Below, piece after piece: positions 13,992 to 38,734 of a stretch of 41,048 bases of DNA. Location of the stretch: positions 1 to 41,048 of IMG/VR virus record IMGVR_UViG_3300035099_000031; one strand, 5' to 3'. The position numbers and the translations under genes are program-made. The DNA comes from a virus. Below the pieces are notes generated by a model. The model searched no databases. It saw only the letters and a program-made list of their open reading frames with translations, and had not been told where the DNA came from. Each line of letters starts with the position of its first letter. The stretch's first letter is position 1.

Positions 13992-15065
13992 ATGTCCCCA
14001 TTGGACGTGCCATTTCTGAAACTCATCGGCGGCATTGACCAGTTTACCTGTGATAATCCAAAGGTCGAATGGCAGAAGGATGACCTGTGGACTGGCTCAC
14101 TTACCGTATCCAGCACCACTGGTTTTACCGACACCGCACAGACAACCCTATATCTAAATGCCAGTTCTGCTTACCAGTTGCAGCTAGGAACCGTTATCCA
14201 GATTGACGATGAGTTGATGTGGGTAACGGCGGTAGCGAGTGCCACCACTGCAACAGTAACCAGAGGTTATGCTGGCAGCACCGCTGCAACCCACAGTACG
14301 GCTCTTACCGTATACCTGGCTGGCATAGCGGTGGCTGAGAACGCCGACAGCCCGTATCGGGGAACGCCGATTTACAGCTTCCCCTATAACTGGGTGCAGG
14401 TGTTTGATGCTGCTATCCAGAGCTCGTTTATCAACGAGAATACCAACTACTACGGCGAGAAGCCAACCCTAGACAGACTCTTGGCCTTTACGCTGAAGCA
14501 GCAGACGGCTTTACTAGAGGCTGCGGCTATCAGGGGACTGCGTGGTGTGGCAGCGGATATGAGCGCTACTGAGCCATCCTCGATGGGTGGATTGCGCCAG
14601 TATATCAACCCCACCGACTCCAATGTTACGGATTTGGCTGGTGCGGCAATTACTGAGAAAAACATCAATGATTTGCTTCAGACCATCTTCGAGAAGGTGG
14701 GGGCGGAGAACATGGCGAAGACCATCATTTGCAACGCCTGGGTTAAGCGCAAGATTAGTGGCTTCTATGAGCCGCATGTGCGCCTGAATCAAGGTGAGAC
14801 AACGGGCGGCGTCGCCATTGACAAGCTGGAGACCGATTTCGGCACGATCAACGTGGCGCTGGTACAGCGATGTCCCCCAGAGAGAGCCTACTTTATCAAT
14901 CCTGACTTCATCGAAGTCGGGCACTATAAGAACCTTCAGTTCGCCGAGTACGACCTGGCGGTATCTGGTGGCTACAAGAGACGCCATCTGTACGGCGTCT
15001 ACTCAATGGTAGTCAAGAACGAAGAGGCTCAGGGACTGATTGATAATATCAGCACCACAGCGTAG
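13992..15065 (+). CDS. Major capsid protein, SU10-like
   Basis: The 357 aa from the first ATG match the SU10-type major capsid family (formerly DUF5309). MSPLDVPFLKLIGGIDQF leads into NPKVEWQKDDL, an inserted beta domain follows (about 35-115), and the C-terminal half holds VKRKISGFYEPHVR, a DFGTINVALVQRCPPERAYF segment and YSMVVKNEEAQGLI. The frame stays open upstream to TAA 13857 and that part still looks like capsid N-terminus (VNTTTAGITTSRVAGVTGGY then PTPSDWTAQPRYVDDAFDV). The true start therefore lies upstream of 13992, but no ATG, GTG or TTG exists there, and no ribosome binding site precedes 13992. Confidence 0.88.
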   Translation: MSPLDVPFLKLIGGIDQFTCDNPKVEWQKDDLWTGSLTVSSTTGFTDTAQTTLYLNASSAYQLQLGTVIQIDDELMWVTAVASATTATVTRGYAGSTAATHSTALTVYLAGIAVAENADSPYRGTPIYSFPYNWVQVFDAAIQSSFINENTNYYGEKPTLDRLLAFTLKQQTALLEAAAIRGLRGVAADMSATEPSSMGGLRQYINPTDSNVTDLAGAAITEKNINDLLQTIFEKVGAENMAKTIICNAWVKRKISGFYEPHVRLNQGETTGGVAIDKLETDFGTINVALVQRCPPERAYFINPDFIEVGHYKNLQFAEYDLAVSGGYKRRHLYGVYSMVVKNEEAQGLIDNISTTA

Positions 15066-30931: not shown

Positions 30932-31096
30932 ATGCTTGCAGCAAGCGATATGATACGTTATCTAAAAAAGGCCCAGGCGGGTAAGGGCGACAAGAAAGTA
31001 GGCGAAACCGCTAGGAGACAGGCCATCGGAATTGTTGATGGCCTGTTTTCTTTTGGGCAAACCATCCTAATTGCAGTTGATACTCCCCAGCCTTAA
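30932..31096 (+). CDS. Small ORF ending in an IS605-type terminal sequence (54 aa)
   Basis: The frame starts at ATG 30932, four bases after a TATAAT (30922-30927), with no ribosome binding site. The product is basic then hydrophobic (MLAASDMIRYLKKAQAGKGD, then FSFGQTILIAVDTPQP). Its last codons (VDTPQP and stop) lie in a sequence matching the reverse complement of the TnpB element right end at 38549-38580. It may be a truncated gene. Function unknown, and the call is weak. Confidence 0.35.
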   Translation: MLAASDMIRYLKKAQAGKGDKKVGETARRQAIGIVDGLFSFGQTILIAVDTPQP

Positions 31097-31108
31097 AAGG
31101 CGGGGTTT
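31077..31108 (-). repeat. Solo copy of the IS200/IS605 right-end hairpin, reversed
   Basis: TTGATACTCCCCAGCC and the following TTAAAAGGCGGGGTTT agree with the reverse complement of 38549-38580 at 27 of 32 positions. No tnpB or left end lies beside it. Read on the plus strand CCCC-A-GCC/GGC-GGGG followed by TTTT (31084-31109) is also a good intrinsic terminator, so the fragment may now serve as one. Confidence 0.6.
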
Positions 31109-31112
31109 TAGG
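31084..31112 (+). terminator. Intrinsic terminator
   Basis: CCCC and GCC pair with GGC and GGGG around a short TTAAAA loop with one bulged A, and TTTTAGG follows. It closes the lysis-to-DUF4406 message before the promoter at 31163. Confidence 0.55.
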
Positions 31113-31136
31113 CAGCGTTAATTGCAGATAATGCTT

Positions 31137-33112: not shown

Positions 33113-33283
33113 ATGAAGGCAAGGCTATACGATTGGGAGATGTTTTTAATTCTAACGGTTGCTGTCATTGTCCTGACGGCACTCCACATTCGCTTACATC
33201 CAGCGACGCTATATGGAGCTTATGTCTTAGGGATATTAGCGGCATTAGGCTACAAAGCATTACTTGACAGGAGAAGCAGATGA
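33113..33283 (+). CDS. Small two-span membrane protein (56 aa)
   Basis: ATG 33113 follows AAAGGAGAAGCAG. Spans are FLILTVAVIVLTALHI and LYGAYVLGILAALGYKALL. The final codons carry GGAGAAGCAG, the ribosome binding site of the next gene, with ATGA overlap, so the two are coupled. Membrane role unknown; it lies away from the lysis genes. Confidence 0.6.
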   Translation: MKARLYDWEMFLILTVAVIVLTALHIRLHPATLYGAYVLGILAALGYKALLDRRSR

Positions 33284-34224
33284 CAGAAAAAGCAATAGTG
33301 CCACATGAAGCCCCAATCGCCTTGAGAAGCCAGTTTGCAGAGCGAGGGTTAAGCCCTGAACAGGCTCGGTACCAAGTCCAACGCATAAGTGAAGTTTACA
33401 AAACCGTGATGTCTGAGGGAACAGATTATGGAGTTATCCCAGGGACACCAAAGCCGAGCCTATGGAAGCCTGGTGCCGAGATTTTAGGTATGGTGTTTGA
33501 ACTTGAGCCACGAATTGTATCTGAGGATAAGACCTTCGATTTCGAGCGGGGCTTTATTAAGTATGATTACCATATGCAAGTTGGATACACCCTGCCGGGG
33601 GGTCTTTTCATTGTGCGCGGTGAGGGCGTGGGAAGCTGTAACTCCTGGGAGGAGAAATATCGCTATCGCTGGGTGTGGCCTAATGAGCTTCCCCCAGAGG
33701 TTGATAGAGATAGCCTGGTAAAGCGATGGGTAAGAACGAAGACGGGGAGGGCCCCGCAATATCGGTTAGAAAATCCCGATCCCTGGAGTTTAGACAATAC
33801 CATTAAGAAGCAAGCTAAGAAGCGGTGCTTCGTAGATGCTATCCTAAATGCGACCAGCGCCTCCCGTATATTCACGCAAGATGTCGAGGACTTACCCCCA
33901 ACCCTGATGCAGACGGTTGCCGAGGATAATCTTGAGACAAGAGGCACCGATGATGCCGCGGTATCACCTGAACCGAAGACAGGCCCCCCTGAACAAAAGG
34001 CAGCGCTACCTCATATTGAGCAGGCAAAAGCCCTAGAGGAACTAGCCTATAAGATGTGGTCGCATATTGAGAGTAAACAGGCACGCTCTATGGCCTGTGG
34101 TCGCTGGATAAATCAGAAGTTCGGTAAAGGTTGGGGAAGTATGACCCCAGATGAGCGAAGTGCTGTTATCAACGCATTAGCATTTGAAGTCGGGGAGAAG
34201 AAGGAGGTAGACGATGACGACTAA
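33280..34224 (+). CDS. Candidate single-strand annealing/recombination protein (314 aa)
   Basis: Residues 28-75 (VYKTVMSEGTDYGVIPGTPK then PSLWKPGAEILGMVFELEP) and 175-200 (KKQAKKRCFVDAILNATSAS) match a phage family in DNA-metabolism operons in which G-x-DYG-x-IPGT-x-KPSL-x-KPGAEKL is the signature. I associate it with Rad52-like annealing proteins but not with certainty. The linker (210-245) is Pro/Glu-rich and the C-terminus ends in an acidic tail (EVDDDD) like SSB. Next to the replication genes this fits recombination. Confidence 0.5.
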   Translation: MTEKAIVPHEAPIALRSQFAERGLSPEQARYQVQRISEVYKTVMSEGTDYGVIPGTPKPSLWKPGAEILGMVFELEPRIVSEDKTFDFERGFIKYDYHMQVGYTLPGGLFIVRGEGVGSCNSWEEKYRYRWVWPNELPPEVDRDSLVKRWVRTKTGRAPQYRLENPDPWSLDNTIKKQAKKRCFVDAILNATSASRIFTQDVEDLPPTLMQTVAEDNLETRGTDDAAVSPEPKTGPPEQKAALPHIEQAKALEELAYKMWSHIESKQARSMACGRWINQKFGKGWGSMTPDERSAVINALAFEVGEKKEVDDDD

Positions 34225-34919: not shown

Positions 34920-36158
34920 ATGGATTATCTTTCTAGCACCGATGGCTCGGTTTATGTCGAGATTGCGCTAGGAGATGCTGTGTTGTTGATAGAGGCTTCT
35001 GATGTTCGGCGTGAACGGACGGGCATACACGGGCGGCTTTGTATTATGCTTGACGGCGAACCTCTTGCCTGGACTATAGATAACATCGAAAAGGACGAGG
35101 TACGCACTAGATTGGGGAATAAGGCATACAGTTTCATAGACCCCAAATGGGCCACTAAGGTCAAATACAGCAAGGACGATATAAAGCATGACCTTGACCT
35201 CTTTTGTGCAGGACTATGGGAGCAATATATCAAGCAGGCTGAAGCTGAGGAAGTAGATGGAGACCCAGACATTAAGCTCTCCTTCTTAGTAAAGCCATTC
35301 ATCCTAGAAGGTGGTGGAACGATAATTTTTTCCCCACCTGGCAGGGGAAAAAGCTATATGGGCTTGGCTATGGCTGTCTGCATTGATGCCGGGCTCGATA
35401 ATTTGTGGCCTTGCCGGCAGGCTAAGGTATTATTTGTAAACCTGGAGCGGTCTGCCCAGTCGGTAAGGCGCAGGCTTGGTATGGTGAATCGAGCACTAGG
35501 TCTACCATGTAACCGTAAGCTCCTGATGGTGAACCAAAGAGGTAAGAGCCTGGCTGATATTTACGATGGTGTTAAGTCTACAATCGCCAAACATGATGTG
35601 AAGGTTATCATCCTTGATTCACTGAGCCGTGGTGGCTTTGGCGATCTCACGGGCAATCAAGATGTAAACCGAGCCGTTGATGCAATCAATAGCCTCTGCC
35701 CTACCTGGCTTGCCTTGGGGCATACGCCGCGCCAAGACGAAAGCCATGTCTTTGGTGGTATTCACTTTGACGCTGGGGCGGATATTATGATTCCCTTAAC
35801 GAGCGAAAACAAAGAGAATGGCACGCTAGGGGTAGCTATGGAGATAAGCAAGGCGAATGATGTATCAACCGGGCAGCGCAGAACCATCGCCTTTGAGTTT
35901 GATAATGACGCCTTAACCGCTATAAGGGAAGCAGAAAGCTGGGAGTTTCCTGAGCTAGAAGCTGAGCATAAAGTAAGCCTAAAGGAACAAGTGGAGGATT
36001 TTCTGCTCGACATGGGCAAGGCTAGTGCTACACAAATCGCTAATGAAACGGGACTGAGTAGAGCTAAAATATCAACTTTGCTGCGCCATGATTCTAGGTT
36101 TGTAATGGTAGAGCGCAAAGGGACATCTGTACTATATGGCGTTAAAACTGTTGCTTAA
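34920..36158 (+). CDS. RepA-like RecA-fold helicase/ATPase (412 aa)
   Basis: Residues 138-145 are a Walker A (SPPGRGKS) and 228-234 a Walker B (VIILDSL); NLERSAQSVRRRL and LALGHTPRQDESHVFGG follow the AAA_25/RepA pattern. Residues 1-120 are a separate N-terminal domain, and 350-412 a winged helix (ASATQIANETGLSRAKISTL). It is the replicative helicase or loader candidate, beside a DnaB-N-like partner and directly before iteron-like repeats. No polymerase is encoded, so host polymerase must be used. Confidence 0.78.
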   Translation: MDYLSSTDGSVYVEIALGDAVLLIEASDVRRERTGIHGRLCIMLDGEPLAWTIDNIEKDEVRTRLGNKAYSFIDPKWATKVKYSKDDIKHDLDLFCAGLWEQYIKQAEAEEVDGDPDIKLSFLVKPFILEGGGTIIFSPPGRGKSYMGLAMAVCIDAGLDNLWPCRQAKVLFVNLERSAQSVRRRLGMVNRALGLPCNRKLLMVNQRGKSLADIYDGVKSTIAKHDVKVIILDSLSRGGFGDLTGNQDVNRAVDAINSLCPTWLALGHTPRQDESHVFGGIHFDAGADIMIPLTSENKENGTLGVAMEISKANDVSTGQRRTIAFEFDNDALTAIREAESWEFPELEAEHKVSLKEQVEDFLLDMGKASATQIANETGLSRAKISTLLRHDSRFVMVERKGTSVLYGVKTVA

Positions 36159-36159
36159 T

Positions 36160-36387
36160 ATGTGTTACTTAGTATGTGTTCCTACACTTCAAACAAGGGC
36201 ACACATGCTGCTTAGGGGGAACGATATATGTGTTCCCCTATATACAAAAGAAAAGGTAACACATACTATGTTCCCTCATAAATAGGGAGTTTTTATTAGA
36301 CTCCCTTTAGAGGGGAGTCTGCCTAATAAAAACCTGGCACATATAAATTGAACCTATGTGTACATATGGAACACATTGGGAACACAT
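36160..36387. repeat. Iteron-like ATGTGTTMC repeats, candidate replication origin
   Basis: Six 9-bp matches to ATGTGTTMC occur: forward at 36160, 36174 and 36228; reverse at 36256, 36368 and 36379. Close variants lie at 36199, 36267 and 36355. The region is AT-rich, contains a long hairpin (36290-36332), carries no gene over about 260 bp (36159-36418), and follows the helicase gene. Repeats of this kind bind initiators; an operator cluster is the alternative. Confidence 0.6.
36290..36332. terminator. Long bidirectional hairpin within the repeat region
   Basis: TTTTTATTA (36290-36298) pairs with TAATAAAAA (36324-36332) and GACTCCC (36299-36305) with GGGAGTC (36313-36319), with a TTTAGAG loop and a 4-base bulge (TGCC). 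The A-stem-T form is typical of a terminator read from both sides, which would end the helicase message. It could also expose a single-strand origin. Confidence 0.6.
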
Positions 36388-36418
36388 GAGGAAGTATAGT
36401 TCTAAGAGTGGAGAGAAC

Positions 36419-36607
36419 ATGGAGCCTAAGAGCAATCGAGGTCTATGTTATCGCTGCAGGGAAAAGCCAGCGAAGTACATGATGCTGATGGATGAGCCAG
36501 AGCTAGTCCTACGAGATGATGGCTTTCATATGGAGAAAGTGGCAATCTGGCTCTGCGATGCGTGTGAGAAGGAACAGTACAATAGGAGACGCAAGGGGAT
36601 AGTTTAA
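36419..36607 (+). CDS. Small zinc-ribbon protein (62 aa)
   Basis: ATG 36419 follows GTGGAGAGAAC; the longer frame upstream runs through the repeat region and is unlikely. C-x-x-C at CYRC and CDAC, 41 residues apart (GLCYRCREKPAKYMML then IWLCDACEKEQYNRRRKG), form a treble-clef or ribbon pattern. The tail is basic. Function unknown. Confidence 0.65.
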   Translation: MEPKSNRGLCYRCREKPAKYMMLMDEPELVLRDDGFHMEKVAIWLCDACEKEQYNRRRKGIV

Positions 36608-36626
36608 CAACTGAATATGGAATAGA

Positions 36627-36721
36627 TTGTGGCTACCGGCGGGGATGAGTACCGCCCCCGAAAGGGCCGCACGAGAGCGACGGGGCAGAACGACAGTAGG
36701 AGCAGAGCCTACTAGCCACAA
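36627..36721 (+). ncRNA. Candidate structured RNA with cloverleaf-like fold
   Basis: A 9-bp closing stem (36627-36635 with 36713-36721) encloses three arms: GGCGG/CCGCC with a 9-base loop (36638-36656); CCCG/CGGG (36657-36660 with 36681-36684) around CGC-ACGAGA-GCG; and GTAGG-AGCAGAG-CCTAC (36696-36712), a 5-bp stem with 7-base loop abutting the closing stem. The alternative CCC-GAAA-GGG hairpin (36657-36666) is also possible. A further GCG-GAAA-CGC hairpin lies at 36746-36755. There is no T-loop consensus or CCA, so it is not a normal tRNA. The gap 36608-36827 has no supported ORF and is GC-richer than its flanks. Confidence 0.5.
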
Positions 36722-36827
36722 GCCAAGCCTGGGGAGTGGCACTATGCGGAAACGCTAAGGGGTGTATTAAATGGGCGAGCTAGACCGTACCCAGCTCCCC
36801 AGGTGGGGCACCAGAGAAAGGAGAATG

Positions 36828-37076
36828 ATGGCTGATAGTTGGAAGGCAGAGAACCCTTATACAGCAGGCAACTATTTACCAGGCCAGGAGAAGCCCAAAA
36901 CATTCGATGAGGGCTGTGAAGCCCAGGCGGAGAAGCTGATAGCGTTACTTGAAGCTAATATGATTACGTTAGTAATTGAAAAGCCATTCCAGGAGGAGCT
37001 TGTTGCAATCCCCAAAGAGTGGTGGCAGCAACTAAAGAAGGAGGTGGAGAATGGAGCGCAAGATGGGGTTGCCTAA
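36828..37076 (+). CDS. Hypothetical protein (82 aa)
   Basis: ATG 36828 (or 36825) follows AGAAAGGAGA; an in-frame ATG at 36771 lacks a site. The protein starts MADSWKAENPYTAGNYLPGQ, then a helical region and a short basic-acidic end. No family recognised. Its stop overlaps the next ATG (TAATG). Confidence 0.6.
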   Translation: MADSWKAENPYTAGNYLPGQEKPKTFDEGCEAQAEKLIALLEANMITLVIEKPFQEELVAIPKEWWQQLKKEVENGAQDGVA

Positions 37077-38136: not shown

Positions 38137-38195
38137 GTAATTATAGACTCGCGGGCGAGAAAACCTCGCCCTTCAGGGCGGGGATGAAAGCCCGC

Positions 38196-38224
38196 TTGCC
38201 TTCTTTCCAAGATTGTGCTATAAT
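38196..38224 (+). promoter_or_regulatory. Promoter inside the IS remnant
   Basis: TTGCCT (38196-38201), 17 bp, TATAAT (38219-38224) with the TG extension at 38216-38217. It reads toward the tnpB remnant and the right end, so an RNA covering the right-end hairpin and the flank could still be made. Confidence 0.65.
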
Positions 38225-38259
38225 AGATAAGGCACGGAACGGGTTAAGCCTAAGTAGGG

Positions 38260-38547
38260 TTGCCTACCCAAGGACTTAACAAAAGCCTTCACCTTCAAGG
38301 TGAGAAGCCATATATGGTAGTTCAACCAGACGCTCAAGCACGTCCTAGAGCACTTGAGCGTCGATTTTTTAGGGACACCTCTCAGCTCTGCTCCCAGTGT
38401 GGAGCTAGAGTTCCTAAAGACCTCTCGGTTCGTATCCACCGTTGTCCTTCCTGTGGTTTAACAATAGACCGCGATATCAATGCTGCCCTTAACATCTTAA
38501 ATTTCGGGCTGGGGCACAGCCCTCAGGTGCCTTGCACCGTATCCTGA
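38260..38547 (+). pseudogene. tnpB: TnpB C-terminal fragment (zinc finger and last RuvC motif)
   Basis: The frame from TTG 38260 encodes [20 protein letters not shown] then [20 protein letters not shown], the four-cysteine finger (C44, C47, C62, C65) and the DRDINAA motif of TnpB. Full TnpB has roughly 350-400 residues; the first three quarters, with the RuvC I and II acidic residues, are missing. The N-terminal 38 residues do not resemble TnpB. It cannot be an active nuclease. Confidence 0.8.
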
Positions 38548-38560
38548 GAATCCCCGCCCT

Positions 38561-38734
38561 TTAGGACTGGGGAGTGTCAATGTGGCTGTCCTGACGTTTA
38601 GCTACTACTCTCCCGCATTTGGGGCATTGAAAGGCAATAGTCTTATTGCGTCCTGACCATCCATAACCATGAATGTACATCTTGGCCCCACACTCAGGGC
38701 ACATAGGCCGAATAGCCTCAGTCTTTTGTGTCAT
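38561..38734 (-). CDS. Small zinc-ribbon protein, C-terminus replaced by IS end (57 aa)
   Basis: ATG 38734 follows AAGGAGCAAG. MCPECGAKMYIHGYGW and FQCPKCGRVVAK form a C-x-x-C...C-x-x-C ribbon. The last residues (DTPQS and stop) are encoded by the IS605-type right end, so insertion changed or truncated the C-terminus. It is the last gene of the minus-strand operon. It overlaps the preceding gene by 17 nt. Confidence 0.65.
   Translation of the reverse strand: MTQKTEAIRPMCPECGAKMYIHGYGWSGRNKTIAFQCPKCGRVVAKRQDSHIDTPQS

Follow-up and report, generated by a model that had tools for sequence, protein, structure and literature searches.

A foldable, cloverleaf-like segment between replication-region genes of a phage: candidate 5′ leader rather than tRNA mimic

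Does a short, GC-rich stretch of phage DNA that can be drawn as a cloverleaf specify a functional RNA and, if so, does its likeness to tRNA say anything about what that RNA does? The question was raised by an earlier note on IMG/VR virus record IMGVR_UViG_3300035099_000031, made from the sequence alone, which singled out positions 36627-36721 as a structured RNA candidate in the replication region and offered four possible roles: tRNA mimic, origin-linked RNA, anti-defence decoy or translational leader for the gene at 36828. We refer to the whole stretch of DNA that was analysed, 41,048 nucleotides in length, as the window.

Upstream of the segment, on the + strand, lies a gene for a RepA-like ATPase (34920-36158), which carries an AAA_25 domain, has relatives at 32-49% identity and, by eye, ends in what looks like a winged-helix domain. 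An iteron-like array (36159-36387), made up of ATGTGTTCC/GGAACACAT repeats, variants of these and a palindrome, is found directly 3′ of this gene, and is followed by a + strand gene for a small protein with two CxxC pairs (36356-36607; no family match). A non-coding gap (36608-36824) separates the CxxC gene from the next, a small gene in the same orientation (36828-37076, start at 36825 or 36828), which has no family match and the strongest coding score in the neighbourhood (codon score 0.238). Further downstream, 38150-38590 is a remnant resembling an IS200/IS605-type element, with terminal hairpins CCTCGCCCTTCAGGGCGGGG and CCCCGCCCTTTAGGACTGGGGAGTGTCAA and, between them, a truncated TnpB C-terminal domain (Pfam Cas12f1-like_TNB, E 6e-15); a short stretch at 31080-31115 (TGATACTCCCCAGCCTTAAAAGGCGGGG) resembles, on the other strand, the end of such an element, and no transposase gene accompanies it.

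The helices described in the earlier note—a 9-bp closure, a 5-bp arm with a 9-base loop, a central arm and a 5-bp arm with a 7-base loop—all proved to be present in the sequence. In this + strand segment (module A, 36627-36721), an inverted-repeat search recovered the closing helix TTGTGGCTA/TAGCCACAA (36627-36635/36713-36721) as a perfect repeat, with nine of nine positions paired, enclosing a multi-branch junction. From the junction project GGCGG-GGATGAGTA-CCGCC (36638-36656), a central arm of 3 bp capped by GAAA (CCC-GAAA-GGG), a weak 3-bp arm (CGC-ACGAGA-GCG) and GTAGG-AGCAGAG-CCTAC (36696-36712), which abuts the closing helix and is stacked on it. When the 95-nt segment was folded with RNAfold, the minimum free energy (MFE) and centroid structures were both essentially this fold (-36.2 kcal/mol, z -2.60), and its energy was matched by 3 of 200 dinucleotide shuffles.

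The earlier note had also recorded a GNRA-capped hairpin at 36746-36755 following the cloverleaf. This hairpin (GCG-GAAA-CGC) is indeed there; however, it is not a separate element, belonging instead to a larger fold that had gone unnoticed. That fold, module B (36722-36809, + strand), begins at the base immediately after module A and consists of GCC..GGC outer pairs followed by a long helix formed around another perfect inverted repeat of 9 bp, CCTGGGGAG/CTCCCCAGG (36728-36736/36795-36803). Folded over 36722-36812, it scored z -2.83, with 2 of 200 shuffles as good. Together, the two modules occupy nearly all of the gap between the end of the CxxC gene at 36607 and a Shine-Dalgarno sequence at 36817, and 36627-36809 is, judging from the predicted folds, a better structural unit than the 95-nt segment alone.

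The whole gap folds with an MFE of -81.0 kcal/mol (z -3.08), which none of 400 shuffles equalled, and two disjoint 9-bp closures appeared in none of 3000 shuffles of the gap. The region is a GC island (64% vs 49%), and the GC content of the 95-nt segment is attained by 0.3% of 95-nt windows. Across 36627-36809, the fold favours the + strand (z -2.62, vs -1.40 for the - strand).

Codon scores calculated against the phage's own gene usage gave no coding signal in any of the six frames across 36608-36827, ruling out a coding explanation of the gap and bearing out the earlier description of it as lacking a supported gene; the longest + strand open stretch within it (36627-36755) scored -0.03, compared with 0.15 +/- 0.07 for true coding segments of the same length. 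The picture of a GC-rich, non-coding and foldable segment is thereby supported. Its function is a different matter, as a fold predicted from a single sequence is, according to PMC8250186, no evidence of functional structure.

We tentatively favour the reading, to which we assign a probability of roughly 0.4, that 36627-36809 is a lineage-specific, cis-acting structured 5′ leader of the small gene starting at 36825 or 36828. The segment is non-coding, lies directly upstream of that gene and is on the same strand. An untranslated RNA of ~183 nt would be transcribed on the + strand together with the replication-region genes and would fold in the cell into a pair of neighbouring domains shortly before the small gene, where it could protect or insulate the message and set translation of that gene. 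It might perhaps also govern the choice of start: in the predicted fold, the Shine-Dalgarno sequence AAAGGAG (36817-36823) lies exposed 7 nt past the structure, whereas an alternative in-frame start at 36771, preceded by AAGGGG at 36757-36762, is buried within module B and partly paired. A leader that shielded the 5′ side and so favoured the downstream start would be consistent with this anatomy. The reading is supported by the whole-gap statistics (fold energy, paired closures and GC content), by the + strand preference, by the lack of coding signal, by the shared direction of the flanking genes and by the high coding score of the downstream one; promoter-like sites in the region do not exceed the shuffle mean, which is consistent with co-transcription. 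Against it count the single-sequence nature of the fold, the lack of a homologue in the collections searched and the fact that adjacent 9-bp closures are commoner in real DNA than shuffles suggest. Of the roles first offered, that of a leader for 36828 still appears the most likely, plausible but unproven.

The main rival, which we regard as quite conceivable, is that the segment has no RNA function and is simply a non-coding, GC-rich spacer whose good fold is accidental. Module A by itself is only moderately unusual: 16 of the window's 854 95-nt segments score at least as well by z, placing it about 17th, and 12 of 854 equal or better its MFE, so that it falls within the top 2% without being exceptional. 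A strict motif, combining a 9-bp Watson-Crick closure with a stacked 5-bp/7-nt arm, occurs once in the window and in none of 100 Markov shuffles, a contrast to be read in the knowledge that the definition was picked after module A had been seen; the same motif turned up six times in 7.36 Mb of other viral and genomic loci (both strands), twice with the second arm as well. Adjacent pairs of 9-bp closures were likewise found at 19 loci in 3.69 Mb of real DNA, or ~0.2 per 41 kb, 9-bp closures being commoner in real DNA than in shuffles. With both strands counted, 782 kb of related viral DNA contained 16 matches to a relaxed cloverleaf descriptor, or roughly one in every 49 kb, which makes one match in the 82 kb represented by both strands of this window what chance would give. 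The absence of the RNA from all replication-module relatives that we found also fits a spacer. What a spacer accounts for less readily is that the whole gap outperforms 400 of 400 shuffles, forms a marked GC island without coding and prefers the + strand; the case for something better than chance is stronger for the gap than for the 95-nt segment.

Homologues were sought by several routes. The 41-kb record has no close relatives among the collections searched, from which near-identical records may have been left out: BLASTN against phages and plasmids returned no meaningful match, and exact peptide words from the terminase, RepA, P0002 and P0003 identified no relative in IMG/VR. The terminase and the phrog_10048 protein (33280-34224) led to hundreds of distant matches, none of which shares the replication region. 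The phrog_10048 protein has >500 matches among IMG/VR candidates, with many in bacterial and some in archaeal genomes; it shows recurrent motifs such as YGVIPGT and IFTQDxED and is common, yet its function is unassigned. A search with a conserved motif of the RepA-like ATPase reached 7 contigs and an alignment search then yielded 27 loci at 32-49% identity, which have the replication gene in common, in one case (L269) clearly together with the preceding DnaB-N gene, but hardly the terminase. RepA searches in two phyla, undertaken in the hunt for a host, produced only distant AAA matches.

More than 20 viral contigs with a RepA-like gene at this level of identity were examined with BLASTN and with a covariance model, and none carries the RNA. 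The model, built from the single sequence and structure (self-score 126 bits), found nothing in the RepA-gene relatives and their full records; another 1.1 Mb gave one negligible match, and ten bacterial and archaeal genomes gave none. Because a model of this kind can pick up only homologues that are fairly similar, these results indicate the absence of close rather than distant ones. The RNA seems to be confined to the lineage of this phage. A weak second model match, at 14217-14296 inside the capsid gene (19.3 bits, E 0.003 on a rough calibration), folds differently in context and was set aside as a probable coincidence in coding sequence. The strongest fold in the window by 95-nt z is that of 14150-14299, inside the major capsid gene (about -4.4; -3.9 for 150 nt), which takes in this matched stretch.

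Phages encode small RNAs, and the segment could instead be one of these: a trans-acting regulator or host-factor decoy processed from the replication transcript. Its compact, GC-rich and gene-free setting in an early-type region would suit such a product; nevertheless, we consider it unlikely, given that no promoter-like sites were detected above background, no intrinsic terminator was found at the 3′ end of the RNA and neither an Rfam match nor a homologue was recovered. Rfam 15 at gathering thresholds gave no match in the whole window and, relaxed up to E 10, none overlapping 36608-36827.

A place in the replication origin, whether as a cruciform in the DNA, as a primer RNA or as a structure at the nick site next to the iterons, strikes us as quite unlikely. 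The array lies 240-470 bp further upstream, immediately 3′ of the RepA-like gene, and the DNA fold retains both closing helices, although it is weaker against shuffles (z -1.97) and a gene sits between the RNA segment and the array. The array itself has what is expected of an iteron origin, namely clustered short repeats beside an initiator gene: all four copies of the exact 9-mer ATGTGTTCC in the window fall within 36174-36387, and 36217-36340 forms a strong palindrome (z -4.68). Diverged repeats (AAGTGTGTA, GGCAACACAT, ACCACACAT and AACGTGTCC) occupy the same place in several relatives, the same RepA-iteron layout recurring in the otherwise dissimilar viral contigs L250, L267, L269, L273, L274, L280 and L282; at 9 of 21 family loci (the window included), an 8-mer is present in three or more copies in the 400 bp following the gene, vs 7% of control stretches. 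This array is probably the replication origin or RepA operator, and arrays so placed are probably the replication origin in this phage group. The cloverleaf is missing from relatives that keep the array and is therefore no constant component of the RepA-iteron system, and the origin-linked role once suggested for it is better suited to the separate array.

Very unlikely, in our estimation, is a new class of phage structured RNA: a product of ~183 nt from the replication region, made of two domains of which the first is cloverleaf-like, that would act in trans on some factor of the host or the phage and would be confined to a lineage not yet in collections. That module A is a tRNA, a tRNA remnant or a tRNA mimic is hardly credible despite its arm order and the stacking of a 5-bp/7-nt arm on the closing helix, for ARAGORN found no tRNA or tmRNA gene, no tRNA-family Rfam match occurs in 36150-37000 up to E 10, tRNA hallmarks detailed below are missing, and, with viral DNA yielding cloverleaf geometry at the rate that chance predicts, the likeness carries no information.

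If the favoured leader is real, it lengthens the list of unclassified phage RNAs by one, from a phage without a close sequenced relative. The more transferable result is the control: with relaxed tRNA-like geometry arising by chance so often in related viral DNA, tRNA mimicry should not be read from such likeness without covariation. A better handle on the replication of these phages is provided by the RepA-like gene with its iteron array, present in several otherwise dissimilar viral contigs.

Set beside known systems, module A resembles tRNAs and tRNA-like structures in its arm order, its stacked 5-bp/7-nt arm and the 2-nt joint before its 5-bp/9-nt arm. It departs from them in closing with 9 bp rather than a 7-bp acceptor, in its extra arm and 16-nt single strand, in a stacked-arm loop (AGCAGAG) without T-loop consensus, in lacking D-loop consensus and CCA, and in having no anticodon-type arm, the central arm being 3 bp with a GAAA loop in place of a 7-nt anticodon loop. 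Like the large ornate phage or phage-associated RNAs GOLLD and ROOL (PMC12286853), the locus is a candidate for a structured, non-coding RNA encoded by a phage, but it is far smaller and has neither an Rfam match nor a family of homologues. The likeness to the iteron origins of plasmids and phages with a RepA-type initiator concerns the neighbouring region, where a RepA-like ATPase gene is followed by clustered 9-10 bp repeats (36159-36387), as in several relatives; the cloverleaf itself contains no iterons and is missing from those relatives. In comparison with the structured 5′ leaders and cis-regulatory RNAs (Rfam cis-reg) known from bacteria and phages, the segment lacks an Rfam match even at E 10, homologues and any terminator or sequestered Shine-Dalgarno that might serve as an expression platform; it is like them in being non-coding and GC-rich, in forming two compact domains on the strand of the downstream gene and in a predicted fold that ends 7 nt before the Shine-Dalgarno sequence.
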